Assembly: GCF_000582785.1 (NCBI RefSeq)
Contig: NZ_HG931175.1
Coordinates: 78,787-142,786, forward strand
Source of the DNA: Candidatus Blastococcus massiliensis AP3
GTDB lineage: Bacteria > Actinomycetota > Actinomycetes > Mycobacteriales > Geodermatophilaceae
Direction: 5' to 3'
DNA: 64,000 bases
The stretch's first letter is position 1, and every line of letters begins with the position of its first letter. This document shows, in pieces, positions 7,758 to 64,000 of this stretch. The notes below the pieces were generated by a model. That model did not search any database, had not been told where the DNA came from, and saw only the letters and a list, made by a program, of their open reading frames with translations. Both the position numbers and the translations under genes were made by a program.

Positions 7758-9116
7758 CTACATGCTGGCGATGAGCTTCTCGACGCGGTCGTCGACGGAC
7801 TTGAACGGGTCCTTGCACAGCACGGTGCGCTGGGCCTGGTCGTTGAGCTTGAGGTGCACCCAGTCGACGGTGAAGTCGCGGCGCTTCTCCTGGGCCTTGC
7901 GGATGAACTCGCCGCGCAGCCGGGCTCGGGTGGTCTGCGGCGGCACGTTCTTGGCCTCGAACACGCGCGGCTCGTGGGCCACGCGCTCCACCTGGCCGGC
8001 CCGCTCCAGCAGGTAGTAGAGCCCCCGGGTACGGCTGATGTCGTGGTAGGCGAGGTCCATCTGGGCGATCCGCGGCGAGGACAGCGTCAGGTCCCGCTTG
8101 ACGCGGTAGCGCTCCAGCAGGCTGAACTTGATCGCCCAGTCGATCTCCCGGTCGATGAGGCTCAGGTCCTCGCTGTCGACGGCCTTGAGCACCCGGCCCC
8201 ACAGCTCCAGCATCTGCCGGTGCACCGGGCTGACGCCCTCGCGGTCGGCGAACTCCAGTGCGCGGTCGTGGTACTCGGACTGGATCTCCAGGGCCGACAT
8301 CTCCTTGCCGCTGGAGAGCCGCACCTTGCGCCGTCCGGTCATGTCGTGGCTGATCTCGCGGATGGCCCGGATGGGGTTCTCCAGCGTCATGTCCCGGATG
8401 GGGACGCCGGCTTCGATCATGCGCAGGACGAGGTCGGTCATCGCGACCTTGAGCAGCGTGGTCGTCTCGCTCATGTTGGAGTCGCCGACGATCACGTGCA
8501 GCCGGCGGTAGCGTTCGGCGTCGGCGTGCGGCTCGTCGCGGGTGTTGATGATCGGCCGGGAGCGGGTGGTGGCGCTGGAGACGCCCTCCCAGATGTGCTC
8601 GGCGCGCTGGCTGACGCAGTAGATGGCCCCGCGCGGGGTCTGCAGCACCTTCCCGGCGCCCACGACGATCTGCCGGCTCACCAGGAACGGGATGAGGACG
8701 TCGGCCAGCCGGCTGAACTCGCCGTGCCGGCCCACCAGGTAGTTCTCGTGGCAGCCGTAGCTGTTGCCCGCGGAGTCGGTGTTGTTCTTGAACAGGTAGA
8801 TGTCGCCGGCCACGCCCTCCTCGGCCAGGCGCTGCTCGGCGTCGACCAGCAGCCCCTCGAGGATCCGCTCGCCGGCCTTGTCGTGGACGACGAGCTCGGT
8901 GACGTCGTCGCACTCGGCGGTGGCGTACTCGGGGTGGCTGCCGACGTCGAGGTAGAGCCGCGAGCCGTTGCGCAGGAAGACGTTGGAGCTGCGGCCCCAC
9001 GAGACCACGCGGCGGAACAGGTAGCGGGCGACCTCGTCCGGGGAGAGGCGTCGTTCTCCCTTGAAGGTGCACGTGACGCCGTACTCGGTCTCGATGCCGA
9101 AGATCCGTCGGTCCAC
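7758..9116 (-). CDS. pafA: Pup-protein ligase PafA
   Basis: A 452-aa carboxylate-amine ligase of the glutamine synthetase-like fold that joins the C-terminal glutamate of Pup to lysines of target proteins with ATP. The Mg-ATP glutamate is in GIETEYG (residues 7-13) and the catalytic aspartate in [12 protein letters not shown] (about D57). The length equals that of mycobacterial PafA. It lacks the extra 40-residue loop that marks Dop. GTG start at 9114-9116, 6 nt after a TAGGCT box. Confidence 0.98.
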
Positions 9117-49221: not shown

Positions 49222-49306
49222 GTCCGGGTGGCGGAATGGCAGACGCGCTAGCTTGAGGTGCTAGTGCCCTTTATCGGGCGTGGGGGTTCAAGTCCCCCCT
49301 CGGACA
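49222..49306 (+). tRNA. tRNA-Leu (anticodon GAG)
   Basis: An 85-nt class II tRNA. The acceptor arms GTCCGGG and CTCGGAC pair, the anticodon stem is CTAGC/GCTAG with loop TTGAGGT (GAG at 49255-49257), a long variable arm (CCCTTTATCGGG) follows and the T-loop is GTTCAAGTC. CCA is not encoded. The 3' end abuts the integrase module, so it is the likely attachment site of the element to the right. Confidence 0.95.
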
Positions 49307-49312
49307 CAACAT

Positions 49313-49348
49313 CGCCCCGGTGTTCCTGCACGTCAGGAGCCCGGGGCG
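49313..49348 (+). terminator. Hairpin downstream of tRNA-Leu
   Basis: CGCCCCGG (49313-49320) and CCGGGGCG (49341-49348) form a perfect 8-bp stem over a 20-nt loop, then TTCT. It begins six nt after the tRNA. Confidence 0.7.
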
Positions 49349-49375
49349 TTCTGCTGGAACGGCCTCCTAGGGCCT

Positions 49376-49394
49376 CGTGATACCCGCGTGATAC
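49376..49394. repeat. Short phased direct repeat between tRNA and integrase
   Basis: CGTGATAC occurs at 49376-49383 and 49387-49394, so the copies are 11 bp apart, one helical turn. They lie between the tRNA and the integrase stop, where arm-type integrase or excisionase sites are expected. Confidence 0.4.
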
Positions 49395-49407
49395 TTCGCG
49401 CACCGGA

Positions 49408-50610
49408 TCACCCTTCGAGCAGGGCAGCGAAGCGGTCGGCCGCCTCGCGACCCATGCCGGGGTGCACGTGCTGGTAGACGGTCAGCGTGATCGTGGCGCT
49501 CGCGTGGCCCAAGCGCTCTGAGACGACCTTGACCGGCACGCCGTCGGCCAGCAGGAGCGTGGCGTGGGTGTGGCGGAGGTCGTGCAGCCGGATCACCGGC
49601 AGCCGCTCCTCCCCCAGCGCTCGACGCGCCCGCGCGATATGGCCGGCGAAGTGGCGGGAGAACCGCTCAGGGTGCCGATGGGTGCCGTCGAAGTTGCTGA
49701 GCACGAGCGCCGAGTCGCGCACGAGATCGAGCGCCAACAGTCCGCGAGCGGCCCGGTAGGCACGAAGCGCGGCCACGGTGCCGGAGTCCAGGTCGACAAC
49801 GCGTGACCGGCCCGTCTTGGTGGGGCCCTCGACCAAGCGCTCGCCGGCGCCCTTGGTCTTCACGACGCCGACGCTGCGGCGGATGGCGAGGCGGCCGGCG
49901 TCCAAGTCGATGTCGCGCCAGCGCAGGGCCAGCGCTTCTCCGCGGCGCATCCCGGTGGCCGCTAGCAGCCGCCAGCCTATGGCGAGGTCCTCGTCATAGG
50001 CCTCCGCCCAGCTGAGGAACCGGCCAAGCTCGGCCGCGGTCCACGCCTGCATCTCCGGAGGACGCGCCTCCGATGGGCTCGGCGGTGTCGACCGGTCGGT
50101 CGGGTTGACCGAGAGCCGTCCCTGTGTGACCGCGTCACCCAGCGCCGACCGCAGGATGGTGTACACGTAGCGCACCGTTCGGGCGGAGAGACCGCCTTGG
50201 CCGTCCGCGCGGCCGGATTCCTCCAGTCTGCGCATCCATACGTCCACCGCTGGACCGGTGAGCCGGGCGACGGGCTGAGCGCCGAGGTACGGATCGATGT
50301 GCAGCCGGATGTTCTTCCGGTAGGAGGCGAGCGTGGCCGGGCCGAGCCGTTGGCCCTGGATCCACTCGGCGAGGTAGGCGTCGAGACGCTGCTTCGACGG
50401 CTCGACCCACTCCCCTACTTCGGTCTTGCGGATCTCCGCCCGCAGAGCCACCGCGGCGTCCTTCCTGGTCTTGAAGCCGCGTTTGAGGACGACGCGCTTC
50501 GTCCCGTCCGCCCGCTGGGCCGTGAACTTGATCAGAAAGCGGGGACCAGCCTTGGTCATGTATTCGCTGATGCCGCCCTCGCCCGCCTGACGTCGCCGTG
50601 GCTTCGCCAT
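49408..50610 (-). CDS. int: Tyrosine site-specific integrase
   Basis: A 400-aa phage-type integrase. An AP2-like arm-binding domain (residues 1-65) is followed by the SAM-like core-binding domain and the catalytic domain with Arg in GMRRGEAL, His-x-x-Arg in LHDLRHTHATLL, His in LGHASATIT and the nucleophile Tyr in TVYQHVH. The ATG at 50608-50610 has GGAGGT upstream. Its stop is 100 nt from the tRNA-Leu, the normal layout for an element that integrates at the tRNA 3' end. Confidence 0.95.
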   Translation of the reverse strand: MAKPRRRQAGEGGISEYMTKAGPRFLIKFTAQRADGTKRVVLKRGFKTRKDAAVALRAEIRKTEVGEWVEPSKQRLDAYLAEWIQGQRLGPATLASYRKNIRLHIDPYLGAQPVARLTGPAVDVWMRRLEESGRADGQGGLSARTVRYVYTILRSALGDAVTQGRLSVNPTDRSTPPSPSEARPPEMQAWTAAELGRFLSWAEAYDEDLAIGWRLLAATGMRRGEALALRWRDIDLDAGRLAIRRSVGVVKTKGAGERLVEGPTKTGRSRVVDLDSGTVAALRAYRAARGLLALDLVRDSALVLSNFDGTHRHPERFSRHFAGHIARARRALGEERLPVIRLHDLRHTHATLLLADGVPVKVVSERLGHASATITLTVYQHVHPGMGREAADRFAALLEG

Positions 50611-51693
50611 CGCAGACCTCCATCTTCGACCCCGCGAACCCGCTGTCAGCCGGATAACTGCTGCGGGCAGCCACTTGTAATGACCACAGAACAACCAGGT
50701 GTAGTCGGCCGAACGGCACCGGCTTGCATCTGTGGACACGCTTCGACGCTGTGGACGACGGTCAGGACGCAACCGCGTGGTGGAACGCCAATGCCCGTGC
50801 AACCTTCACGGGCGGCCTACCGAGCTCCTCGAGTCCTTCTCCGGTACGGCCACCCAGGGATGGTTCTCGCGCGGACGAAGTCGATCGCCTTGCCTCGGAC
50901 CTCGTTGACGCGACGAAGAGTGCGGACATGAGGGAGCGCGGTGAGATACCCGGACTTCCAAGCTGGCCATGCCGGTTCGATCCCGGTCACCCGCTCCACG
51001 TCCTGACCAGCTCGGATGCCCGTTTACGCAGCTCAGCCGGGCAGTGCCGCTCCTTCCGTGCCTTTACGGTGCCGACCCCTGTTGACCGCTGACCACCAGC
51101 TTTGGCCGGTGCTTAAGGCACGGATAAGGCACGAACACCGACTCCACGGCTGAGCCAGCCGGACGCGCGGTGGGGACACGCAGCTTGCCCCGGCGTCACC
51201 GCGACCGACTCAACGGTTCCGCGGGGTCCGCCCTTTCGAACAAGGCGCTGCGATCGCGATCCGACTCGCAACCCTGCCCAACCGGCGGATGCTTCGACGG
51301 CGCAGGAGTGGTGCCCTGGTGACCCATCCTGTCCCGCTCTGGGTTCGGTGGGGCACCGCCGGTGGACGCCCGTTGCACGCTCTGAGGAGGTCGGCCCGTG
51401 CGGTGGGTGCGAGCACCAATTTCTTCACTGGGAAAGGGCAGGAGTTCGGGAGGTCCATGCCGTACAACCCCTCGATCACAGGATCGTCGCCGCGAGTGAC
51501 TGCGGCACCGGTCCGGACGCGGCCAAGCGATGGGCGTCCGGCAGCCCACGGGTGTCCGCGCCGGCGAACGCGACAAGCCCGCCGTCTTAGGGTCCCGTCG
51601 TGTTGGTCGAGGCGCTAGATGTCGTGACCGCGGACGTTGTTTACAGTCGGCGTGGTGGCTTGATCACGAAGGAGACCTCCGGAAGGAGTGGCG
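50611..51693. other. Gene-poor stretch upstream of the integrase
   Basis: About 1.1 kb in which I find no convincing gene. It holds the integrase promoter region, the tRNA-Gly fragment at 50950-50998, and a short direct repeat of AAGGCACG near 51113-51133. Translated frames here have no recognisable protein features. Confidence 0.4.
50950..50998 (+). pseudogene. 3' fragment of tRNA-Gly (UCC)
   Basis: The stretch runs from the anticodon arm (CGGACTTCCAAGCTGG, with TCC in the loop) through a good T-arm (GCCGG-TTCGATC-CCGGT) to the acceptor end CACCCGCTCCA with encoded CCA. The D-arm and 5' acceptor strand GCGGGTG are not found upstream, and the anticodon stem has one mismatch. Fragments from anticodon loop to CCA are typical att cores left by integrases. 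Confidence 0.6.
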
Positions 51694-51903
51694 ATGTCTG
51701 ACGTAGCAATTCCAACCGGTGGTGGGGTCTCACCAAGCCGATTCTCGCCGACAAACTGTCACATGCCGTTCGACGACGACCCGTCCTGCCCAGCAGGTTC
51801 TAGCGGCCGCCCCAGGTACTCAAGAAGCACGTCCCGACGAAACCTAAGGGCGACGGCATCGTTTGGGCTCTGGGCGTACCTATCGAATTCCAGCATGTTG
51901 TAG
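51694..51903 (+). CDS. Possible small or truncated ORF
   Basis: An ATG at 51694 is preceded by the strong site GGAAGGAG and opens a frame of 69 codons (MSDVAIPTGGGVSPSRF). The frame runs antisense into the 3' end of the DUF262 gene from 51759 and loses any protein-like character there. It may be the 5' end of a gene cut off when the defence module was inserted, or a short real peptide. Confidence 0.25.
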   Translation: MSDVAIPTGGGVSPSRFSPTNCHMPFDDDPSCPAGSSGRPRYSRSTSRRNLRATASFGLWAYLSNSSML

Positions 51904-52853
51904 TTCGCGGCGGGGTCTTCCTGCAGAGCCTTGGCGCGGTTCTCCTGACGTTCACGATCGAACTCCTCGAACTGCTCACGCTGGAGATCGCTCGCCCATC
52001 CGTCCTCCATAGCCTGACGAACTACGAGGTAGTAAATGCTGGCCATGCCCACGGCCGAAAGCAGCTTGTCACGAGTCAGAAAGATGTCAGCCATCACGTC
52101 CATGACGGCGACGACACTCTGGCGCCATTCATCGAGCACGGTCGGGGCGGACTGCCGGGCGCCGCGCACGAAGCGGTCCAGGTAGGTCCTCTTTGTGTCC
52201 GCGACTCCACCGCGTTCTTCGAAGTGCAGGAACTTGGTTGCTATGTCGAAGTGGCGGTAACGGCGGTTGGCGTAAGGCAGCCGATCAACAAAGAATGTGT
52301 GAGAACTCAACTCCCTCGTGATCGCCGGAACGGGTCCGCCGAAGGCATTTCGCTTCTCGGCGGCATTAAGCGCCGAAGCCTCGTTCAGACGCAAGAACAT
52401 GTCTTCTATGACGTCGAGATCGTCAGTTTCGATTGTGACGACGTCCAGCTGATAGTTTAGGAACTGGTCAACCAGCCGGGGCAACCAGTGCCGGATCGCT
52501 TGAAAGGTCGCCGCCTCACCGTTAGGAAGGACGAGACCGTCGATCTGTGCGTCGGCGTCAAGCGAGAGGTCCCCGTCCATGAACGCCCAGATTGCTTCAA
52601 GCCGCTGACGCCCGTCGATCACCGTGTATGCGATGAGCCGCTCCCCTTGGTACTCGGGCGGGACAAGGGCCCTGAAGTACAACTTCGGGACGTCGAAGTC
52701 ATTGAAGATGCTGTCGATGAGCAGCTTGCGGCGCGACAGGGACCAGATGTCTCCTGCCCGCTGGTAGTCCGGATCGAGCTGGATGCGTTCGCGCAAAGCG
52801 GCGATGTCGCGGAGGGTCGAGGTCTTGAGCTGTCCTCTGATCAAGTTGGTCAC
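51759..52853 (-). CDS. DUF262 domain protein (ParB/Srx-like, GmrSD-N type)
   Basis: A 364-aa protein with the DUF262 domain in its first half: DPDYQRAGDIWSLSRRKLLI, PKLYFR and the key motif VIDGRQRLEAIWAF, where D-G-x-Q-R is the proposed nucleotide or catalytic site. The second half is helical (LNEASALNAAEKRNAF onward) and lacks the DUF1524 HNH domain of GmrD. DUF262 proteins occur in type IV restriction and other phage-defence systems. The GTG overlaps the FRG gene stop, so the pair is coupled. Confidence 0.85.
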   Translation of the reverse strand: MTNLIRGQLKTSTLRDIAALRERIQLDPDYQRAGDIWSLSRRKLLIDSIFNDFDVPKLYFRALVPPEYQGERLIAYTVIDGRQRLEAIWAFMDGDLSLDADAQIDGLVLPNGEAATFQAIRHWLPRLVDQFLNYQLDVVTIETDDLDVIEDMFLRLNEASALNAAEKRNAFGGPVPAITRELSSHTFFVDRLPYANRRYRHFDIATKFLHFEERGGVADTKRTYLDRFVRGARQSAPTVLDEWRQSVVAVMDVMADIFLTRDKLLSAVGMASIYYLVVRQAMEDGWASDLQREQFEEFDRERQENRAKALQEDPAANYNMLEFDRYAQSPNDAVALRFRRDVLLEYLGRPLEPAGQDGSSSNGM

Positions 52854-53626
52854 GGCAGTCGGTCCGCGACGCGTCGAGCGAGATGTTGCAGGTCTGGATA
52901 CATAGCGGCGGCGTTCACACCAAGTCGTTGCAGCTCTCGCGCCATCGCCGGCTTGGCAACGTCAGAAATCACATACTTGACCAGTGTGTCCGTAGAAGTC
53001 TCCTCAAGCGGTTGCGGGTCCTTATGCATTATGGTGAATACGCCGGTCTGCGCCCGGATGCGGTCAAAGCGACGTACCGCAGTCAGAGCCGCAGGCGCAA
53101 GATCGCGACCTGGCGCCGCTACCTCAGCGGGGGAATACCAGTCGGCCTCCTTGCTCGATCCACACAAGGGCACGTCCCACGGTTGACTGCTCGTGATCCT
53201 CGCTTGCGCATTCAACAGCTGCGGACGGAGCGCCCACAGCGAGGCGCCTTCGCCTGGCGAGGGCGGCAGATGTGCGTCGTCGAAGGCAAAGAACAGCGCG
53301 GCGAGCGGGGATTCGCTCCAGTCCAGCAGCCGAGTGGGAACACCGTAGTGCTGCATGAGGAACAGCCAGTCCCACTCGTTCAGTTCGCCGCCACGGACGT
53401 CCGCGCCGAATAACAGCGCCGTGGCGTCACGCTGGAACTCGGACATTAGTTCGCGTTCCATGTGAAGCCCGTTGCGCCGGGCGAGCGAGGACTGCAGGAC
53501 GTAGGACTGCCGAGCTTGCCCTCTGAACCAGACCAGTTCGTCGTCCGCGAACCTGGTGAGCAGGTCGCTTAGGAGCTCGCCGACCGACGCGATCGACACC
53601 TCGGTCAACGGTGCTGCGGTCGTCAC
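52850..53626 (-). CDS. FRG domain protein
   Basis: A 258-aa protein with an FRG domain over most of its length. The name-giving motif is VWFRGQARQSYVLQSSLAR (residues about 32-50), followed by the conserved MQHYGVPTRLLDWSESPLAAL. FRG proteins are frequent near restriction and toxin-like genes, but their activity is unknown. It is the upstream half of a two-gene unit with the DUF262 protein (GTGA overlap). GC content is lower than in the chromosomal genes. Confidence 0.85.
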   Translation of the reverse strand: MTTAAPLTEVSIASVGELLSDLLTRFADDELVWFRGQARQSYVLQSSLARRNGLHMERELMSEFQRDATALLFGADVRGGELNEWDWLFLMQHYGVPTRLLDWSESPLAALFFAFDDAHLPPSPGEGASLWALRPQLLNAQARITSSQPWDVPLCGSSKEADWYSPAEVAAPGRDLAPAALTAVRRFDRIRAQTGVFTIMHKDPQPLEETSTDTLVKYVISDVAKPAMARELQRLGVNAAAMYPDLQHLARRVADRLP

Positions 53627-54297: not shown

Positions 54298-55341
54298 TCA
54301 CGTGGCTCGCCGGCAGAGGGTGCTGTGTTCGGGTCGAACTGAGCGTGGCGCGCTACCGCTGTAGACATTGTCGCGATGCCAGGCGAGGTAGACATTGCCC
54401 GGAGCCACCGCGCCGGCCGGCAGCAGCAGCGCTTCCGCCAGTGGCGGTCGGCCGAATGCCGCCTGCGCGCCCGGACTGCCTTCGGCGGCGGCCGATGCGA
54501 TGTCGGGCGCGAGATGGATGCGCAAGCCACCGTTAACCATTAGAAGGCCTGTATCGAAGGCGACATCGTGCGTGGGACACGCCGTGAGCCCGTTTCGCGG
54601 GTCGAGGCGTTCAGCTGGCCGGCTGATCCGCCAGGGCTTGATGTGGCTCGCCACAAGCATCCGGCGGGCTCGCTCCCCCGCCGCCGTCACGCTGAGGCCG
54701 CAGAAGACGCACGCATGCCCGTGATTGCGCAGCACCTCGCCGGCGAACCTGTGCTGCCCGACGCGCGCCGCAGCGACAAGCAGACGTTCCGTCACCTGCT
54801 GGGCTAAGTCCGTGCGCTCAGTCGCCCAGTTGTCGGCCGCCGCCTGCACGGCCCCCTCGAGGTCCTCCAGCAGAAGCTCCTCCTGACCAAGAAGCAGCAG
54901 GTCACTGTCGTCGCCCTCAAGTAGTAGAAAGTCGGGCAGCCGATCCGCTTTGATGCCACTGTCGCGCGCTGCTTGCAGGAGTAGCCGGTAGGTGGTGGCG
55001 AGTTGACCAGGTGTGGCAAGAAGCCGGGCAGCGACCTCGATCTCGTGCCTGGCGCCGTTGCGGCGGCTGCCGTCGAGGTTCGCCATCTTCGCGAGCACGC
55101 TGCTGTTTGGGCGTCGGAAGAGGGCGGCCATGGCCGGGACGGGCTGCTCGGCGCGATGCGCAGTGCTCCCGCCGTACCGGCGATGGTTGACCAGCAAGCT
55201 GGCCGCGAGGCACATCAGCGTCTCCACGGGCGTGAAGTCGACCTGACGGCCGCTGACGGCGGGCTGTCGCGCGTCGATCACGCGCCACTGATTACGCGCT
55301 TCCGCGACGTTGATCGCGAGGTAGTCCTTGACGGTTCGCAC
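54298..55341 (-). CDS. HNH endonuclease
   Basis: A 347-aa protein whose C-terminal third is an HNH nuclease of the HNH_2 type: CVFCG zinc pair, ASHIKPWR with the first histidine, then NGLTACPTHDVAFDTGLL. The N-terminal 200 residues are helical with no known domain and may recognise DNA or a partner. Proteins of this kind act as restriction endonucleases. It lies 83 nt below the zinc-ribbon/HEPN-like gene, so it could be the effector nuclease of the neighbouring system. Confidence 0.82.
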   Translation of the reverse strand: MRTVKDYLAINVAEARNQWRVIDARQPAVSGRQVDFTPVETLMCLAASLLVNHRRYGGSTAHRAEQPVPAMAALFRRPNSSVLAKMANLDGSRRNGARHEIEVAARLLATPGQLATTYRLLLQAARDSGIKADRLPDFLLLEGDDSDLLLLGQEELLLEDLEGAVQAAADNWATERTDLAQQVTERLLVAAARVGQHRFAGEVLRNHGHACVFCGLSVTAAGERARRMLVASHIKPWRISRPAERLDPRNGLTACPTHDVAFDTGLLMVNGGLRIHLAPDIASAAAEGSPGAQAAFGRPPLAEALLLPAGAVAPGNVYLAWHRDNVYSGSAPRSVRPEHSTLCRRAT

Positions 55342-55424: not shown

Positions 55425-56318
55425 TTAGACGTCGACTGCTCGTAGGAGCCGATCCAGTATCCCGTCGCGGCCGAGTACGCGGTCTCGACAGCGCAGGTAG
55501 TCGTCGGCGGTCAGGAGGTCCGTGTGAGCGGCGCGGTTGCGGACGTTCTTCGACAGGTCGGCGAGCACCGCTGGCAGCCCGTCGCCATCCAGCAACCAGG
55601 AGGCTGCGGTGCGGCTGCTCACGACCCTAAAGAGACTGCCTACCAGCGGACTCGTCTCGCGCCTCGAGCGGGAGCGAGCGGCGACACCGAGGGTGTACCC
55701 AAGCGCGCCGAGTTCAGGTGCCGGCGCTCGGCCCGCGCAGTAGCGAGCCACCCTCATCAGGTCCCTGTCCTTGAGGTCAGCAGCTAGGTCCAGTCCCGCG
55801 GTGGCGTCTTTCCACGGCTCGGCGATGCAGCGGACAACTTCCACCTCGACGGCCTTGCACAGGCAGATGATCGCGGCGGACCAGTCAAGGCCCGAGGTGT
55901 GACGCAGGGCTCCGCTGACGGCCTCGGCCGTCGCGAGCATCAGCTGAGCCTGAGCGCTAACCCTCGAGTAGACGGCTGCCTGCTCCTGCAGCCGACTCCG
56001 CGCATCGGCGATGTCGGACACCGGGACGTTCTTGGCGAGGAACTTGACGACCGCGAGATCGCGCTCGGCGGCCGGGAGGTCTCCGGCCCTTATGTCCCAC
56101 AGCGACAGAAGCAGTCCGTAGCAGCCGTTGCACAGCAGCCGCTCGGGATTGGCGTCGATGATCGTGACAAGTTTCGAGGTCTTCGACGATCCGCAGCGCC
56201 AGCAGGTGAACGTGCGCGACGCCGGCAACCTGTACTGCTGCAGGGGACCCCGGGCGACGTAGGTCCGGACAGCTGTGGCGAGCACCTCGCGTGCGGATCC
56301 GGCGCTCACTACAGGCAC
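55425..56318 (-). CDS. Zinc-ribbon protein with HEPN-like C-terminus
   Basis: A 297-aa protein. A four-cysteine zinc ribbon is formed by C39/C42 and C63/C66 (TCWRCGSS and LLCNGCYG). The rest is helical; near the end KNVRNRAAHTD gives an R-x4-H pattern (R260, H265) like the active site of HEPN ribonucleases. It starts 22 nt after the Dcm stop, so it should be in the same transcript. The HEPN call is from the motif alone and is tentative. Confidence 0.55.
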   Translation of the reverse strand: MPVVSAGSAREVLATAVRTYVARGPLQQYRLPASRTFTCWRCGSSKTSKLVTIIDANPERLLCNGCYGLLLSLWDIRAGDLPAAERDLAVVKFLAKNVPVSDIADARSRLQEQAAVYSRVSAQAQLMLATAEAVSGALRHTSGLDWSAAIICLCKAVEVEVVRCIAEPWKDATAGLDLAADLKDRDLMRVARYCAGRAPAPELGALGYTLGVAARSRSRRETSPLVGSLFRVVSSRTAASWLLDGDGLPAVLADLSKNVRNRAAHTDLLTADDYLRCRDRVLGRDGILDRLLRAVDV

Positions 56319-56340
56319 CGCCGGCCGACGCTAGCGCTCA

Positions 56341-57507
56341 TCACAGGCCGGTGTGCTCAAGCAGGGCGAGCCCGATGGTGGCGGCGACCTTGACCGCTAC
56401 GGCGTTGCCGATGACGCCCATGACGCGGGAGCGGGGGCCGGGGAACTGGTAGTCCTGCGGGAAGCCCTGCACGAGCGCGGCCTCGCGGACGCTGAGGTAC
56501 CGGACGCTGCCGTCGAGCTCGCGAAGCATCGCTTCGCCGCCCGCGACCCCGTGCACGCCCGCCTTGATCGTCTTGCTGGGCATGTCCATCGGGCTGCCGG
56601 TGTGCTTCGCGTAGGTGCGGGCGCCCGGGATTGCCCTGTGATCGGGCCACTCGGTGTCGTCGTCGGTCGCCATCGGCTCCGGCACGTTTCGGAGGGCGTC
56701 ACGGAGCGTCCGCCACCGCTCGAACTTCTCGTCCACCCCGGTGAGCTGGAGTCGCGCCACGTGACGGACCAGTCGGGCTGGGATAGTCGGCATCGGCAAC
56801 CCGTGCGCCTGCCAATAGGTGCCGGTGACGTACTGGTCATGCAGCAGCCGGTCACGGCTGTGTGTCGTCGAGATCTTGTCCCAGGTTCCGGCGCCGGCGA
56901 CGTCGGCGCGGATCGCGATAATGAAGACGCGCTTCCGGCTCTGCGGAACGCCGAGGTCAGCCGCGTCGACCTCTTCCTGGTAAATGCGGTAGGTGGGCTT
57001 CTCCTTCGATGCGCGGATCCGCTCGTGGTGGTGGTCCCAGAGCTCGTCGCTGTCGAGCGGCTTGATGTCCGGTCGGCGCAGCTGGTCCTTGACGTAGTCG
57101 AGGTACGGCTCGAACGTCGGGCGGAGCAGGCCGGGCACGTTCTCGAACACGACCAGTTCCGGGCGGAGCTTGCGCACGACCCGTAGCGCGGACGGAAACT
57201 GGTTGCGCTCGTCGCTGTCGCCGGCGTGCGTCCCAGCGAGGCTGAAAGGTTGGCACGGTGGCCCGCCTGCAACGAGCTGGACGGTGCCGCGTTCACCCAG
57301 CTCGTCAACGGCTTGGTTGACGTCATTCTCGATGACGCTGTCGGGCTTCCACAGGGTCGGCTGGCGTTCGGCGTTGTGCCGCAGGACCCGAGCGGCGGGC
57401 TTCCACCACTCGACGAGGCTCGTGTGCTCGAAGCCGGCTTCGCGCATGCCGAGTGCCATGCCGCCGCCGCCCGCGAACAATTCGACGGACTGCCTCACGT
57501 CGGTCAT
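56341..57507 (-). CDS. dcm: DNA (cytosine-5) methyltransferase
   Basis: A 388-aa m5C methyltransferase. Motif I is ELFAGGGGMALGM, motif IV GGPPCQPFSLAG with nucleophile C85, motif VI ENVPG, motif VIII PQSRKRVF and motif X GNAVAVKVAATI. The target-recognition region (residues about 200-330) is of ordinary length. The ATG overlaps the Vsr stop (ATGA). It would mark host DNA for the restriction genes upstream. The recognised sequence cannot be derived. Confidence 0.95.
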   Translation of the reverse strand: MTDVRQSVELFAGGGGMALGMREAGFEHTSLVEWWKPAARVLRHNAERQPTLWKPDSVIENDVNQAVDELGERGTVQLVAGGPPCQPFSLAGTHAGDSDERNQFPSALRVVRKLRPELVVFENVPGLLRPTFEPYLDYVKDQLRRPDIKPLDSDELWDHHHERIRASKEKPTYRIYQEEVDAADLGVPQSRKRVFIIAIRADVAGAGTWDKISTTHSRDRLLHDQYVTGTYWQAHGLPMPTIPARLVRHVARLQLTGVDEKFERWRTLRDALRNVPEPMATDDDTEWPDHRAIPGARTYAKHTGSPMDMPSKTIKAGVHGVAGGEAMLRELDGSVRYLSVREAALVQGFPQDYQFPGPRSRVMGVIGNAVAVKVAATIGLALLEHTGL

Positions 57508-57959
57508 GCCGCTGTTGTCCGCAGACGCGGGCCGTCGGAGCGCACGGCGTCCGCGACGAGGTCGGTGACAGCGGAGAGGTCGCGCTCGATGTCGCTCTCC
57601 CAGCAGCGCAGGACGGTCCAGCCGGCGCACGTCAGCGTGGCCGTGACTTCGAGGTCCCGAGCGATGTTGCGACGGATCTTCGCGAGCCAGAAGGGTGCGT
57701 TGCCGCCACGGCCGTAGTAGGCGTCGAAGCTTTCAAAGCCGCGGGTGCGCCAGGCGTTCCCGTGCCAGTAGTCCCCGTCGACGAACACGACGACCTTCGC
57801 GGGCCCGAACACGATGTCGGGCTTGCCGGGCAGCGCGGTCCGGAGCCGGTAGCGCAGTCCTCGGCCGTGCAGCGCTTTGCGCAGCGCGAGTTCAGGCTTT
57901 GTGTCGCGGTTGCGGACGGCGCTCATGATCCGTCGGGTCGTGTCGGGGTGGCGGCTCAT
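57504..57959 (-). CDS. vsr: Very short patch repair (Vsr)-type endonuclease
   Basis: A 151-aa nuclease of the Vsr fold. The start MSRHPDTTRRIMSAVRNRDT and TKPELALRKALHGRGL are characteristic; the metal Asp is in LPGKPDIVF (D48) and the active-site segment is VVFVDGDYWHG with H66. The zinc ligands of E. coli Vsr (GCFWH-x-H-x-x-C) are changed, so this is a smaller variant. It may repair T:G mismatches made by the methyltransferase, or serve as the restriction nuclease. Confidence 0.9.
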   Translation of the reverse strand: MSRHPDTTRRIMSAVRNRDTKPELALRKALHGRGLRYRLRTALPGKPDIVFGPAKVVVFVDGDYWHGNAWRTRGFESFDAYYGRGGNAPFWLAKIRRNIARDLEVTATLTCAGWTVLRCWESDIERDLSAVTDLVADAVRSDGPRLRTTAA

Positions 57960-58570
57960 GGCTGACCGCCCGCGATCCCGAGGACTTCCCGCATCCGGTG
58001 GACCGTCAGGGCGCATCGTTCCGCGAGCCTCTGCTGTTCTTTGACCAGTTCGGGCGGGCTGGCGGTGCCAGGCGGCTCGAGCACGACCAGGTGTGCGTCG
58101 AGCCCATCGAGAGCGGAGGCGCGCAGCGCCGCCCACAGTAGGTTCTTGAAGTTCCGGCTGTGATCCCACGCGATGTACGCGGTGGCCCCATCGATTTCGC
58201 CGAGGCAGTGCAGCGGCTTGCTTCCGAGCGACCCCTCGACGAGGGTCGCGGTCGGACCGAGCGCATGACGCACAACGTCGTTGGGTCCAGTTCCGCCCTG
58301 GCGGCCGTACGCGGCGAATCGGCCGGCGCCCCGGAGCGCTCGCCCGTACTCCTTCATCGGCCCGTCCTTGATCCAGGACCGGGCCTGCTCCGGGGTCATG
58401 AACCGTGTGAGGGGTCCGCCGACTCGCTCGTCCTCGATCCACCGGTTAAAGGTCGCGGTTCGGTCCGCGAGCGGCAGGGTCTGCCAACCGAGCCGATCGG
58501 CGTCGGCGTAGATGGCGCGGACGACCTGCTCGCGGACCGAGGGCGGCAGGAGCTTGTCTCGGTTGCTCAT
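57956..58570 (-). CDS. Unknown protein in the Dcm-Vsr-helicase-MORC operon, 204 aa
   Basis: A soluble 204-aa protein with start MSNRDKLLPPSVREQVVRAI. The first part is helical (TFNRWIEDERVGGPLTRFM, MTPEQARSWIKDG); the second half shows strands such as KPLHCLGEIDGATAYIAWDH that could fit a nuclease or a SET/Rossmann-like core, without a clear motif. ATGA overlaps at both ends tie it to vsr and the helicase gene. I do not recognise it; a restriction or specificity subunit is a reasonable guess. Confidence 0.7.
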   Translation of the reverse strand: MSNRDKLLPPSVREQVVRAIYADADRLGWQTLPLADRTATFNRWIEDERVGGPLTRFMTPEQARSWIKDGPMKEYGRALRGAGRFAAYGRQGGTGPNDVVRHALGPTATLVEGSLGSKPLHCLGEIDGATAYIAWDHSRNFKNLLWAALRASALDGLDAHLVVLEPPGTASPPELVKEQQRLAERCALTVHRMREVLGIAGGQP

Positions 58571-60222
58571 GCCGGGAGCACGTCGGGGTCAAGGAACTGC
58601 AGGCGTGCTTCGTCGTTCGCAGTTTCGATGTCGGCCGCATCCAAGATCCACTGCTCGAGAAGACTCTCGGCTCGCACATCGTTGAACTCGATCTTGCTGT
58701 GCGGGACACGCGGCAGCACTTCCACATCCGCCGCGCCGATCTGACGCTTCAAGGTGAGTAGGGCCGCAACCCGGCGGATGTCGCTCACGAAGTCGAGTGC
58801 AAGAACGTGGCTCTTGCCCTGACGCAGCCGTAGTCCTCGCCCGAGCTGCTGCACGAAGATCCGCCGGCTGTGCGTGACGCGCGCGAACGCCAGGATGTTC
58901 ACATCGGGCACATCGACGCCCTCGTTGAGGATGTCGACCGCGATCAGGAGGGGGACGCGTCCGGCTCGGAAGTCGAGGAGCCGCTGCTGCCGTTCCCGCT
59001 TCGGCATGTCCGTGTGGATCGTGGCGGCGGCGCGCCACTGCGGATGCCGGCGCAGCAGAGTCTGCATGTGCTCGCAGTGCGGGATCGTCTGGCAGAACAC
59101 GATGCCGCGGGGGCTGGCGGTCGAGTGCCAGGCGTCGACGAGAGCGTCGACGACGGCCTCGTCCCGCTGCACGAGGAAGAGCTTGCTGTTTAGCTCTTTG
59201 AGCGAGTACTGATGCTCGCTCACGGCCTTGACCGCGTCCCAGTCGATGTTGTCGACGAACAGCCGGTAGTCAACGGCCGCGAGGTAGCCACGCCGCATCC
59301 CTTCCTCAATCCCGAGCCGGTAGCTGGCCCGGCCGAACCGGTGCTCGATGTCGTACTGGTCGTTGCGCCAGGGCGTCGCGGTGACACCGAACTGCAAGCT
59401 GCTGTTGAGCTCGGTCAACAGCTGGTCAAACTGTCCTGTCTCGGCGACATGGTGTGTCTCGTCGACCATGATCAGGCCGGGTCGCCAGCCGCGAAGGACC
59501 GCGTCGAGTGCACTCGTGACCGTCGCGCACGTGACGCCCGACAGGTCGCGGGGCTTGTCGTCGCCGGTCAGAACCTGCGTCTTGACGCTCTTGGGCAGGT
59601 GGCGCCACAGGGAGCGCTCAAGCTGGTTGACAAGGTCCTTGGTGTGGGCGACGACCAGTACGTCACGGTCTCGGTTCTCCCGTAGATACCGGCCGATGAT
59701 CTCGCCGCCGACCACGGTCTTGCCGAGCCCGGTCGCGAGGATCAGGAGCGCGCGCCGGCGCGCCGTCAGGTCCGCCCACATCGCCGACACGGCCTCGTCT
59801 TGGTAGTCGCGAAGACTGAGGGCTTCGTGCTCGTCGGCGTTGCTCGCGAGCGCCTGCAGCATGCTGCCGTTCCACACCTTGACGTCCCGACCAACACGGC
59901 CGAGCACGTGCGCACGCTCCAGCGCGGCCGCCGACAGATGCGTGTTCGTCAGGACGACACCACGGTCGGCGCCGTAGTGGTCCCACGCGCGCGTGACCTC
60001 CTCGACCGCGTCGGCGTTGACGGCGCCGCGGCTCTTCCACTTGGCCTGGAAGACCCAGAGCTTGCCGTTGCGGGTGCCGAGCAGGTCCCCGCCATGATCG
60101 CCGCTGCCGTCGATGTTGACGACGTCAGAGAAGCCGAGCTGCCCGAGGAGGCGCTCCATCTGCCGGGTGAAGCGGTGCGGCCCGCCGTCCAAGAGCAGCT
60201 GCGGCGCGACGTATGACGTCAT
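58567..60222 (-). CDS. Mrr-like nuclease domain fused to a DEAD/DEAH-box helicase
   Basis: A 551-aa protein. Residues 15-110 form a PD-(D/E)XK domain: G-x-x-G-G-D46 followed by VFQAKWK (Q59, K61). A superfamily 2 helicase follows with Walker A ATGLGKT (about 162-168), DETHH box, the SAT-like FGVTATPW, and motif VI VQQLGRGLRL. This architecture fits a DNA translocase that cuts unmodified DNA. ATG at 60220-60222, chosen over a longer frame, and ATGA overlaps with both neighbours. Confidence 0.9.
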   Translation of the reverse strand: MTSYVAPQLLLDGGPHRFTRQMERLLGQLGFSDVVNIDGSGDHGGDLLGTRNGKLWVFQAKWKSRGAVNADAVEEVTRAWDHYGADRGVVLTNTHLSAAALERAHVLGRVGRDVKVWNGSMLQALASNADEHEALSLRDYQDEAVSAMWADLTARRRALLILATGLGKTVVGGEIIGRYLRENRDRDVLVVAHTKDLVNQLERSLWRHLPKSVKTQVLTGDDKPRDLSGVTCATVTSALDAVLRGWRPGLIMVDETHHVAETGQFDQLLTELNSSLQFGVTATPWRNDQYDIEHRFGRASYRLGIEEGMRRGYLAAVDYRLFVDNIDWDAVKAVSEHQYSLKELNSKLFLVQRDEAVVDALVDAWHSTASPRGIVFCQTIPHCEHMQTLLRRHPQWRAAATIHTDMPKRERQQRLLDFRAGRVPLLIAVDILNEGVDVPDVNILAFARVTHSRRIFVQQLGRGLRLRQGKSHVLALDFVSDIRRVAALLTLKRQIGAADVEVLPRVPHSKIEFNDVRAESLLEQWILDAADIETANDEARLQFLDPDVLPA

Positions 60223-62558
60223 GCCGCGTCGTCCGCGAGCTCGGCTTCCAGCAGCCAGATCGACAGGCGTCCACGCTGGAGTTCTTCGGGGCTGCGACGG
60301 ATCGGCTGGTCGGACAGCGCAGCGACGTCCGACAACAGGTCCGTTACGCGCTCGAGGCCAGCGCGCCGGGCGGTCTCGTCGGTGAGGCTGACGTAAGAGG
60401 TCCGGAACACCTGCGCGTCGAGGAACGCGTCCGGGCGGGTGTTCACGACACGAACGAGGCACAGGGCCGGTGCGTAGTCCAGCCAGTCGCCGCTGCTGAT
60501 GACGTCCTCCCAGTCGCCTCGGCCGCCTTCGATCGCGAACTTCTGCTGCGTCGCGGCGCGCTCGGTCTCGCTCAGGCGCTGCCAGTAGCCGCTGCTGTTG
60601 CCGGCGATGACAGGCTGCATGGTCTCTCGGATCCGAGACACCAGCCGGTCCGCGTTCTCCTTCAGGTGTGGCCCGGTGACCTTCTGATCAGGCAAGCAGC
60701 GCTGCTTGAGCCGTGCGAACAGGTCGCCAAGATCGTCGGTGCCGCCGTCGCGGGTCCGCATGAAGTCGGCCAGCTCGAACACGACGAGGTCGCGAATCTC
60801 TACGGCGAACTCGGTGAAGATCGGGTGCTCAGCGTCGATAAATATCTCGACCGCGGCGCCCCGCACCGTGCCGATGTACACGGGCCGGGGCGGCTCGCCC
60901 GCGGGTCCTATCTGGTCCCGATGCCCGGTGACCCGCCAGGCCGCGTCGACCTTGACCGCGGCGCCGCGTCCCGGAAGCCCGAACGGCGTCTCTAGGTCCG
61001 AGACGGGCCGGGCGTCGGTACGCCAGCGGGCCCTACGCTCGTCCTCTGTCTCCCGGACGGGCTCCGACGGCGGCTCGGGCTGTCCTTCGCCGGGCGCCGG
61101 GTCGTCGTCGAGTCCGGCCTGGCGCCGAATCTCGTCCGGATCCCCCTCGGCCGGCGGCTCCTCGGCTCGCGGAGTGGGGTTGTCGTGCTCGTAGGCAGCC
61201 CGGTACCAGCGTTCGTCCGTCTCGTACTCGTTCTCGCCCTTGCGGAACAGCTCCGCCCACTCGCGGGCGCGCTCGTGAATCGGGCCTCGGTCGTCGCCGG
61301 GCGTCAGGTACTTCACGCCGGCGTCATTGCGCCGGTAGCCCGTTATCAGCCGCGCGAGCGGGCTCGTGTTCGCCGTGGCGAAGCCGAGCTGGCGCGCCTT
61401 TTCCGGAAGTAGGGGGCCCTCGCCCCGCAGCACGCGCTTGACCTTGGTCCAGTCCGGGCTGCCGTACTCGAACGCGTTCTTTTGATAGTTAACCGCGACG
61501 TGGTCGACGTGGATCTCGCCGATGAGGCGGCCCTGACCGTTCGGGATTTCGACCGGGTACTCACGCAGGCCGCCGCCGGAGGGCTCGTCCGGGTCGACCC
61601 ACGAGAACAGGCTCTTGTCGCGGAGAAGGATCTTGCGGCCATTGCGGAGGAAGTCAATGCCGAAGTCGCTCTGGTGCAGGTACCGCTGGACGCCAACCCA
61701 GCCCCAGATGCGCCGCTCACGCCGATCGAGACGGTGACTGTTGCAGCGCACGCACGCCTGCTCGCCCAGGTCGTCCTGCCACTGGCCGCAATGCAGGCAG
61801 GCGAGCCGATCGGTCAGCGGGATGTCAATGTTGATGACGGCGGGGATCTGGTCACCCTTGCGGACCACGCTGCGCTCGGGCGACCACGTGCACGGTCGAC
61901 GCGGCTTCACAGCCTGTCGGTCCACGACCAGCCGGAAGTCGCGCTGCGTCAGCAGGTAGCTGTAGACGTCCCCCAGGACGTTCCGGATCGCCGGCTGGCG
62001 GCGCACGAGCGCGTCGTGGTGCTCCGGCTTGAGGTCCTTGATCAGGATCTCAGTGCCGCGATCCTCCGGGTTTTCCTTCGGCTCCGTGCGTACGGGCACG
62101 TTGAAGTGGCCCTGGGCCTGCATGGCGGGCAGGTCGATCGTCACGACGGTCCAGTGTGAGGCGTCCGCGCGAGCCGTGCGGACTACAGCGGTGCTGCCGA
62201 GCCGGGCGGTCGCGATGTTGAAGCCCATGCCGAACAAGCCAAGCTGCCCGAAGCGATCGTTGCTGGTCCAGCCGGCGCGCAGTGCGTTCTGAAGATCACC
62301 GAGGCTCAGGCCCGGGCCGTTGTCCTTGACCCAGACTTCAGCGGTCCGCGGGTCGCTGTTGCGGCCGGGGAGCGTGACGGTGACGGTCGGCTCCTCCAGG
62401 TTCGGGTGGCGGAGGAACTCGTCGAAGGCGTTGTCGATGAGCTCAGCAAGACACTGCCACGGGGCGAACTCGATGTCGCCGAGAACGCTCAAGAGCCGGG
62501 GGTGCGGCTGGAGGTCGATCACCTCGGGCTGGGCCTGCGTCTTCATCATCACCTTCAT
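60219..62558 (-). CDS. MORC/Hsp90-like GHKL ATPase
   Basis: A 779-aa ATPase of the GHKL type. The N-box is AELIDNAFDEF (39-47), the G1 box VKDNGPGL (77-84) and the G2 box GLFGMGF (107-113). A second S5-like domain holds a four-cysteine zinc ribbon (CLHC...CVRC, about 250-275). An acidic Pro/Glu linker near 475-530 leads to a helical C-terminus. MORC-like ATPases in bacteria are reported beside restriction genes and may clamp DNA. The first of several nearby ATGs is used; one four codons on has AAGGTG before it. Confidence 0.88.
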   Translation of the reverse strand: MKVMMKTQAQPEVIDLQPHPRLLSVLGDIEFAPWQCLAELIDNAFDEFLRHPNLEEPTVTVTLPGRNSDPRTAEVWVKDNGPGLSLGDLQNALRAGWTSNDRFGQLGLFGMGFNIATARLGSTAVVRTARADASHWTVVTIDLPAMQAQGHFNVPVRTEPKENPEDRGTEILIKDLKPEHHDALVRRQPAIRNVLGDVYSYLLTQRDFRLVVDRQAVKPRRPCTWSPERSVVRKGDQIPAVINIDIPLTDRLACLHCGQWQDDLGEQACVRCNSHRLDRRERRIWGWVGVQRYLHQSDFGIDFLRNGRKILLRDKSLFSWVDPDEPSGGGLREYPVEIPNGQGRLIGEIHVDHVAVNYQKNAFEYGSPDWTKVKRVLRGEGPLLPEKARQLGFATANTSPLARLITGYRRNDAGVKYLTPGDDRGPIHERAREWAELFRKGENEYETDERWYRAAYEHDNPTPRAEEPPAEGDPDEIRRQAGLDDDPAPGEGQPEPPSEPVRETEDERRARWRTDARPVSDLETPFGLPGRGAAVKVDAAWRVTGHRDQIGPAGEPPRPVYIGTVRGAAVEIFIDAEHPIFTEFAVEIRDLVVFELADFMRTRDGGTDDLGDLFARLKQRCLPDQKVTGPHLKENADRLVSRIRETMQPVIAGNSSGYWQRLSETERAATQQKFAIEGGRGDWEDVISSGDWLDYAPALCLVRVVNTRPDAFLDAQVFRTSYVSLTDETARRAGLERVTDLLSDVAALSDQPIRRSPEELQRGRLSIWLLEAELADDAA

Positions 62559-63410
62559 CTGGAGGACTACTCGGATCGTGGCAGCATGTACCGACAGAAG
62601 CGGCGGACCGGCCAGGGGACGTGTCCCCTTGTCGGTGACCGCGCTTGTAGTGCTTGGCCTACTTGTCGTGCTTGGCGTGCTTGCTGAGCGCCGTGCCTGT
62701 GCGGAGGACTGCCGCCTCGGCAGTGCTCGTTCCTCGCGTCCTCCACTCAGACGACGGTGCGACGGTCAGTCAGATACGGCAGCCCGCAGTTGGTGCCGTT
62801 GATCAACGTCCGGGCGACGCTGGTGAACGATGCCGGGCTGAACGGCAGCCACCGACGGTGTGTGCCGAAGCCACCCGGAGCCTATAAGCGCTGAAACCCG
62901 GTGACGTCTTTCAAACAACATGCGGGCGTTTCGCATCGGCCGGCGGGAGAACCAGTTGCGGTCACTGCGCACCACGGCTGTCACCCCGCTGCGATCTTGT
63001 CGGACGAACCCGTACTGATGCACGAGTCCGAGTCCCGCGACGACCGAGGAGCGCGAGCCATCTAGCACCCAGGACCTTGCCTACGCTCGCTGCCCGAGCG
63101 AACAAGTCGCGTCCCCTGCTGACGGCTCTACCGCCCCCTCCTCGTCACTCAAGAGTCCAAGATCACCAGCCGACACACGTCTTGCATTTCGGGCGGCCCG
63201 TCCGTGGCGGTCCGCTGGCAGGTGACGGGCGTCCAAGCCCAGGTGACGCCTGATGGTTCGTGATGCGAAGCCTTGGTCGTTGCGCCGGGATCTGCGTCAT
63301 GTCCCCGTCTACGCGACCGACGAGGGGCCCTTGCCGACACTCTCGCGCCACCGAGCTACTGGAGAAGTGCGGCAGCTGTAGTGGAGTCCGCCTTCCTACG
63401 GTCGGCAGCC
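62559..63410. other. Intergenic stretch between the defence operon and the relaxase
   Basis: About 850 nt without a convincing gene. It should hold the promoter of the MORC-Dcm operon near its left end. A minus-strand frame of 100 codons (62766-63068) has an odd but not impossible composition (SDRNWFSRRPMRNARMLF) and could be a gene remnant. Confidence 0.35.
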
Positions 63411-64000
63411 GTGATGACGCTGCACAAGCTGACCGCCGGGGACGGCTACACGTACCTGACGCGGCAGGTGGCAGCGTTCGACGCGACGGAGCGGGGTCAC
63501 GCTGGCCTGGGTGACTACTACTCCCAGCGCGGAGAGTCGCCGGGCAGGTGGAACGGCAACGGCCTGGCCGGGCTCGGCGGAGTGAGTGCCGGTCAGCCCG
63601 TCACCGAGGAACAGATGAAGTCGCTTTTCGGGGAAGGCCGGCATCCCGACGCGCTGCGGCTCGAGAAGGAGGCCCTGGCCCGGGGACAGACACCGCAGGA
63701 GGCGCGGGCAGCAGGGGCCCTGGGGCGGGGCTTCTATGTCTTCGCTCCTCAGGCCGACGGGTTCCGAGCCCGCTGCGCAGAGGAGTTCGCCGCCTCTAAC
63801 GCTGCCCACGGGCAGCCCGCCACCGCCCCAGTCCCGGACGACTACCGAGCGAAGATCCGTAGCGACCTCGCCCGGGTCATGTTCGCTGAGGCCTACGGCC
63901 GCGCGCCGCGCGATGCCCGCGAGCTGTCGGGGTTCCTCGCCCGGGTCTCACGGCCGGCGACGAAGGCGGTGGCCGGCTACGACCTCACCTTCTCCCCCGT
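63411..64000 (+). CDS. TrwC/MobF-type conjugative relaxase, N-terminal part (gene runs off the window)
   Basis: The first 196 codons of a relaxase that nicks the origin of transfer and leads DNA into the recipient. The start MTLHKLTAGDGYTYLTRQVA, with paired tyrosines, and the following GDYYSQRGESPGRWNGNGLAGLG are typical of MobF proteins of actinobacterial plasmids and ICEs. The downstream His triad and helicase domain are beyond the window. GTG at 63411 lies 8 nt after TACGGT; ATG at 63414 is an alternative. Confidence 0.9.
   Translation, partial: MMTLHKLTAGDGYTYLTRQVAAFDATERGHAGLGDYYSQRGESPGRWNGNGLAGLGGVSAGQPVTEEQMKSLFGEGRHPDALRLEKEALARGQTPQEARAAGALGRGFYVFAPQADGFRARCAEEFAASNAAHGQPATAPVPDDYRAKIRSDLARVMFAEAYGRAPRDARELSGFLARVSRPATKAVAGYDLTFSP

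Follow-up and report, generated by a model that had tools for sequence, protein, structure and literature searches.

A probable MORC restriction operon in an actinobacterial genome

The window analyzed here, a 64,000-nucleotide stretch of contig NZ_HG931175.1 of Candidatus Blastococcus massiliensis AP3, contains an operon of five core genes that on balance probably encode an ATP-dependent restriction-modification (R-M) system for CCGCGG. The genes, all on the minus strand, encode a MORC-type GHKL ATPase (60219..62558, 779 amino acids; Pfam HATPase_c_3, 7e-10), an Mrr-like nuclease fused to an SF2 helicase (58567..60222, 551 amino acids; Mrr_cat 7e-16, ResIII 6e-24, Helicase_C 2e-19), a 204-amino-acid protein of unrecognized fold and without a family match (P204; 57956..58570), a Vsr-type endonuclease (57504..57959, 151 amino acids; Pfam Vsr 1e-22), and a C5-cytosine methyltransferase (Dcm; 56341..57507, 388 amino acids; Pfam DNA_methylase 3e-48). 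Four observations bear on this proposal: the gene content, the retention of catalytic motifs, the finding that P204 goes with a single methyltransferase recognition block, and a swap of the motor that accompanies P204.

Dcm enzymes mark sites in host DNA, nucleases of the Mrr type cleave DNA, SF2 helicases like this one are translocases, and GHKL proteins act as ATP-gated clamps. The mechanism we propose is a prediction as regards the CCGCGG specificity of Dcm, the restriction itself, and what each protein does. In it, Dcm would methylate CCGCGG in the host, and the Mrr-like nuclease/helicase and the MORC-type GHKL clamp would attack DNA carrying unmethylated sites. P204 would couple the motor to CCGCGG, most likely as a reader subunit that recognizes the site or its state of methylation. 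MORC may close around or loop the DNA, licensing the helicase-nuclease, while Vsr would serve not restriction but the mending of T:G mismatches that arise by deamination of the methylated cytosine.

The sequence reads ATGA at all four overlaps (60219/60222, 58567/58570, 57956/57959, and 57504/57507), and identical 4-nucleotide overlaps join the five core genes in L002, L003, L006, and L017. A first-pass annotation of this stretch had placed six minus-strand open reading frames here, five linked by ATGA overlaps and the sixth (a zinc-ribbon/HEPN-like gene discussed below) following after 22 nucleotides, and all were found as described. Its domain calls (Dcm, Mrr-like, Vsr, DNA translocase, and GHKL) are supported, as are its views of an operon and of a restriction-type system.

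Conservation and distribution of the gene block

A scan of genome contigs with the window's MORC protein found 18 relatives, 17 of them in the order MORC, helicase, P204; the remaining locus (L015) ends before P204. Five further loci are on four plasmids and one contig of a viral collection (L050), and one of the plasmid loci (L029) has an insertion sequence between MORC and the helicase. When 397 genomes from the window's order were searched with a P204 profile, 16 gave matches. Outside the window these occupy 16 places, comprising the known locus L011, a lone weak partial match (L115), and 14 new loci, 11 with MORC and helicase and three without. There are thus 37 distinct P204 loci, of which 34 have MORC and helicase. 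This recurrence and the shared 4-nucleotide overlaps mark the arrangement as more than chance. Over 22 loci, MORC, helicase, and P204 have pairwise distances that correlate with each other at 0.90-0.95 and with those of Dcm at 0.76-0.85. The first five genes are kept together, apart from Vsr, which is missing at 4 of the 37 loci, so the joint conservation expected of the block holds for these genes and fails for the sixth. The closest relative found is L104. In a sample of the phylum, P204 matched only 2 of 396 genomes (the window's own and one doubtful match), indicating that the system is rare and patchy. The doubtful match, a weak one in G468 (E 7e-4, L083), lacks neighboring genes of the set and was rejected. 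One of the loci (L027) is plasmid pDrdI of the enzyme-producer strain Deinococcus wulumuqiensis NEB 479, where a divergent trio and Dcm lie beside a CBASS-like cluster; methylation data may exist for this strain.

Predicted recognition of CCGCGG

The target-recognition block of Dcm (56503-56715, residues 265-335) is 57% identical to that of M.Eco29kI, compared with 40% in the catalytic N-terminal part; conservation in this M.Eco29kI-like family is thus higher in the recognition block than in the catalytic core. The base that M.Eco29kI methylates is the second C of CCGCGG (PMC3039593), the sequence bound and cut by R.Eco29kI (PMC1952068). By homology, the window Dcm, which is the only PF00145 gene in the genome, is predicted to methylate CCGCGG at the second C. 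We searched all loci for the recognition block with one pattern in a six-frame scan. It is present at 37 of 37 P204 loci (36 in the fetched stretch, and for L106 in the adjoining L116). Among 12 Eco29kI-type loci that lack P204, 11 carry it and the remaining one is fragmented. It was found at none of 30 loci of other 5-methylcytosine methyltransferases of the class; these controls are the highest-scoring loci rather than a fair sample, and the lower-scoring L081 and L082 carry the block. The window itself contains 119 CCGCGG sites against 127 +- 11 expected; this lack of avoidance neither helps nor hurts the proposed specificity.

P204 as a fixed partner of the methyltransferase

P204 is a fixed partner of the CCGCGG-type methyltransferase, an association that we count as new. 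The first-pass annotation had singled it out as an unusual component, and indeed it belongs to no Pfam or NCBIfam family: the best E value in a Pfam search over 18 members was 0.11, PHROGs gave no match, the sole PADLOC match was at chance level (Cas8a, E 0.008), and a PDB profile search returned only chance matches to designed ankyrins. W66, K68, K73, E74, and R77 are invariant in an 18-row alignment. Two loci (L108 and L111) have one in-frame TGA in the P204 reading frame, reflecting decay or sequencing error. Searches gave no P204 in the phage collection and one P204 locus (L050) in the viral contigs. Since P204 tracks the site rather than the motor, it is most likely the reader of CCGCGG or of its methylation state, or at least the best candidate for that role.

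P204 could instead be the CCGCGG endonuclease itself, with a fold that has escaped recognition, while MORC and the helicase merely boost cleavage, loop the DNA, or process it after the cut. The protein stands in the place of the missing GIY-YIG restriction endonuclease (REase) at 26 of 37 loci, the gene order Dcm-Vsr-P204 in L105 puts it in the position of an R gene, and K68, K73, E74, and R77 are invariant. However, P204 has no nuclease motif or nuclease family match, and its profile shows no similarity to either GIY-YIG family (nor to Dcm). Moreover, at all 37 loci counted P204 is accompanied by a motor that includes a nuclease (an Mrr domain or DUF4420), and at none of them does it occur with Dcm alone. 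We regard an endonuclease role as unlikely.

Motor exchange and the missing endonuclease

The motor and the site are separable. Three P204 loci (L102, L103, and L105) use a motor composed of a GHKL ATPase, a helicase-like ATPase, and a PD-(D/E)XK nuclease, and several MORC-helicase-P204 trios adjoin genes of the Eco29kI REase family (PF09517) or distant GIY-YIG relatives. We constructed a tree of 34 block-bearing Dcms, in which the label "with MORC motor" requires at least five changes on well-supported branches and a single clade of MORC-motor Dcms is rejected (p-AU 0.003). The Dcms of nine window-type loci form one clade (99/96). Its sister is L082, which has Dcm, a GIY-YIG REase, and a window-type Vsr (8278-8850) but no motor, alongside FRG and DUF262 genes.

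A search for the PF09517 GIY-YIG REase gave no match in the window's own genome; none of the nine window-type genomes has the family, against 5 of the other 10. A GIY-YIG REase is nearby at none of 11 window-type loci (the nine of the Dcm clade plus L100 and L104), at 11 of 37 P204 loci, and at 12 of 12 loci without P204 (Fisher 1.5e-5, ignoring ancestry). The simplest reading is that the motor and P204 can replace the REase. Two further points are, like the partnership with Dcm, new: P204 has been exchanged from one motor to another, and the lineage of the window has lost the classical REase.

The coexistence of the module and an REase at 11 of 37 loci is also consistent with a second layer of defense, in which MORC, helicase, and P204 would target DNA methylated fully or in part at CCGCGG. 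The module would then be a Type IV-like or back-up device that comes into play, for instance, upon a disturbance of the R-M balance. The frequent dependence of Mrr-fold domains on methylation counts in favor of such a role. However, the module would then hit the host's own marked DNA in the window-type operon, where Dcm is co-transcribed, and the remaining 26 loci have no REase to back up. A second layer is an improbable explanation.

Several points weigh against an ATP-dependent R-M system with P204 as its reader. P204 has no recognizable domain, the C-terminal half of MORC could read DNA equally well and is a second candidate for the reader, and the weak partial P204 match L115 (28%) has neither Dcm nor a motor nearby. 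Residues 203-264, which make up the first part (half) of the recognition region, are only 29% identical to M.Eco29kI, and the recognition block may mark a family and not one exact site. The association tests ignore shared ancestry, and the loci were found through MORC or P204 similarity. Lastly, at the 11 loci that retain an REase, the motor could do another job.

Conserved motifs of the motor and Vsr

The MORC protein comprises a GHKL domain (62094-62459), an invariant Cys4 zinc-ribbon insert (61743-61799), and an S5 motif, GIDFLRNGRKI (61629-61661). In a 19-row alignment, the GHKL ATP-binding residues N43, D79, G81, and G83 (DNG.G) and G107..G112 are invariant, as are the zinc-ribbon cysteines C254/C257/C269/C272, and the S5 motif is near-invariant. 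The S5-domain motif GhXhhpXXRhl has been described as the separator of MORC from paraMORC (Iyer et al. 2008, PMC2292703); by eye, the window protein fits it at 10 of 11 positions, with K replacing a hydrophobic residue. Judged by its GHKL and S5 motifs, the protein is a predicted member of the prokaryotic MORC family as defined in that study. At E<=0.01 its profile matched only human/mouse MORC3 and MORC4 (best 4e-8) and L40e zinc ribbons in the PDB, with neither MutL nor Hsp90 among the matches. A search of the phage collection gave no MORC, nor did a pattern scan of the viral contigs, although the pattern misses some, since L050 contains a MORC. At two loci a sigma-factor-like gene lies divergently beside MORC (L016:7375-8604 and L106:14646-15866), resembling mzaA (sigma factor) in MZA.

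The nuclease-helicase consists of an Mrr-like nuclease part (59848-60180) and an SF2 helicase part (58825-59820), whose best PDB matches include RadD and XPB/RAD25. Across 23 aligned rows, including one truncated at a contig end, the D..Q.K nuclease motif and the helicase motifs are conserved. With its fused nuclease of putative restriction endonuclease fold, near Dcm and Vsr, the helicase has the layout of MORC R-M operon type 1 (Iyer et al. 2008).

The window Vsr lacks cysteines aligned to those of E. coli Vsr (alignment to 1cw0 and 17 other Vsr rows), and window-type Vsr retains the catalytic aspartate region. Its absence from four P204 loci (L010, L027, L029, and L112), where MORC, helicase, and P204 remain, fits a maintenance role. 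The same absence speaks against a self-contained very-short-patch repair machine without a defense function, in which MORC would act as MutL and the helicase as UvrD together with Vsr and Dcm. The operon does combine Vsr and Dcm with a helicase and a MutL-like ATPase, and recruitment to mismatch repair has been suggested for versions outside R-M contexts (PMC2292703). However, the helicase carries an Mrr nuclease domain and a restriction endonuclease gene is present as well at 11 of 37 loci, and we consider a repair machine very improbable.

Relation to known systems

Operons combining MORC, an SF2 helicase with a fused nuclease, Dcm, and Vsr were predicted to be R-M systems in 2008, with DNA looping proposed for the MORCs (Iyer, Abhiman, and Aravind, PMC2292703). 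The block is a real, conserved restriction-type system of a kind predicted earlier, whose functions are all inferred. Like the window, the 2008 operons have a MORC GHKL-S5 ATPase, a Rad25-like SF2 helicase with an N-terminal nuclease, Dcm, and Vsr; the available portion of that text, which is purely predictive, does not mention P204, GIY-YIG/Eco29kI, or CCGCGG (a word search for GIY and Eco29 gave 0). The suggestion in the first-pass annotation that the set might be undescribed consequently has to be narrowed. No PADLOC or NCBIfam system matches the block gene for gene, and in PADLOC v2 only generic helicase, Vsr, and methyltransferase models match the operon, with no family for MORC or the 297-amino-acid zinc-ribbon/HEPN-like protein.

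The Type II R-M system Eco29kI (pECO29; PMC1952068, PMC3039593) shares the methyltransferase recognition block and often has Vsr alongside, whereas the window has an ATP-dependent motor and P204 and no GIY-YIG REase in the operon or the genome. CglI and NgoAVII are examples of an ATP-dependent restriction enzyme built from a methyltransferase, a nuclease, and a helicase-like ATPase (PMC5737866; PMC4267653). They provide a working model in which DNA is cut with ATP hydrolysis; as described in those sources, they have no MORC or P204 and their site is GCCGC. A REBASE census lists 310 putative 5-methylcytosine CCGCGG R-M systems, a number of which include V (Vsr), C, and H (helicase) elements; in the portion available it names neither MORC nor P204 and treats the helicase as an extra (PMC10855626). 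VcSduA (paraMORC3-Shedu), which is phage-tested, likewise pairs a GHKL ATPase with a PD-(D/E)XK nuclease that the ATPase controls, but is described as a single protein of the paraMORC3 family with no methyltransferase (PMC12137116).

Bacterial MORC ATPases are the proposed ancestors of animal and plant chromatin regulators, yet our literature search found no experiment on one, although a restriction role has been predicted since 2008. The operon is a compact five-gene test set with a predicted target sequence, in a genome with a sole 5-methylcytosine methyltransferase, which makes the long-predicted MORC restriction system testable and the role of P204 directly readable. If P204 is indeed a reader that moves between motors, it would show how ATP-dependent restriction systems redirect their aim.

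Neighboring genes and the mobile element

The accessory 297-amino-acid protein (55425..56318, minus strand; DUF7685, a weak match at E 0.011) starts at a GTG (56318) 22 nucleotides past the Dcm stop (56341). It has a CxxC..CxxC zinc ribbon (56121-56204) and an RNRAAH sequence (55524-55541) that fits the R-x(4-6)-H HEPN motif; with no HEPN family match, the label reflects that motif. Its relatives in L023 and L024, 44% identical and on Streptomyces and Bradyrhizobium plasmids, keep the Cys and R..N...H residues, and neither has a MORC gene within 10 kb on either side. The stretches fetched at the other 36 P204 loci contain no relative of it, only its own genome among 394 of the class has it, and it was not found in viral contigs. 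These results count against including the gene in the set, as the first-pass annotation had done, and remove the basis for its idea of abortive infection, in which this protein would be the toxic effector; we give that idea very little credence.

An accessory HNH_2 nuclease gene (54298..55341, minus strand, 347 amino acids; Pfam HNH_2 2e-9) follows 83 nucleotides after the 297-amino-acid gene, and a relative of its product (53%) lies beside the L104 operon. Further downstream on the same strand are genes for an FRG-domain protein (52850..53626, 258 amino acids; Pfam FRG), labeled PDC-S15 by PADLOC, and a DUF262/GmrSD_N protein (51759..52853, 364 amino acids; Pfam GmrSD_N). This pair (51759-53626) adjoins 6 of 11 window-type loci (the window, L002, L006, L017, L018, and L100) and also L082, and may be part of the R-M neighborhood or of a mobile element.

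The operon is carried by a mobile element, integrative and probably conjugative, that spans up to ~111 kb and has a candidate far border. The element's tyrosine integrase gene (49408..50802, minus strand; Pfam Phage_integrase 3e-22) adjoins tRNA-Leu (region 49222-50802), and a TrwC-type relaxase gene on the plus strand is cut by the window end (63273..64000; Pfam TrwC 2e-18). The candidate attachment site, the 22-bp 3' end of tRNA-Leu (49286..49307, plus strand), is repeated without a tRNA ~111 kb away at contig position C3:239022-239043. A third copy with one mismatch lies beyond it, and attachment-like repeats in the contig are at C3:239022-239043 and 279941-279959.
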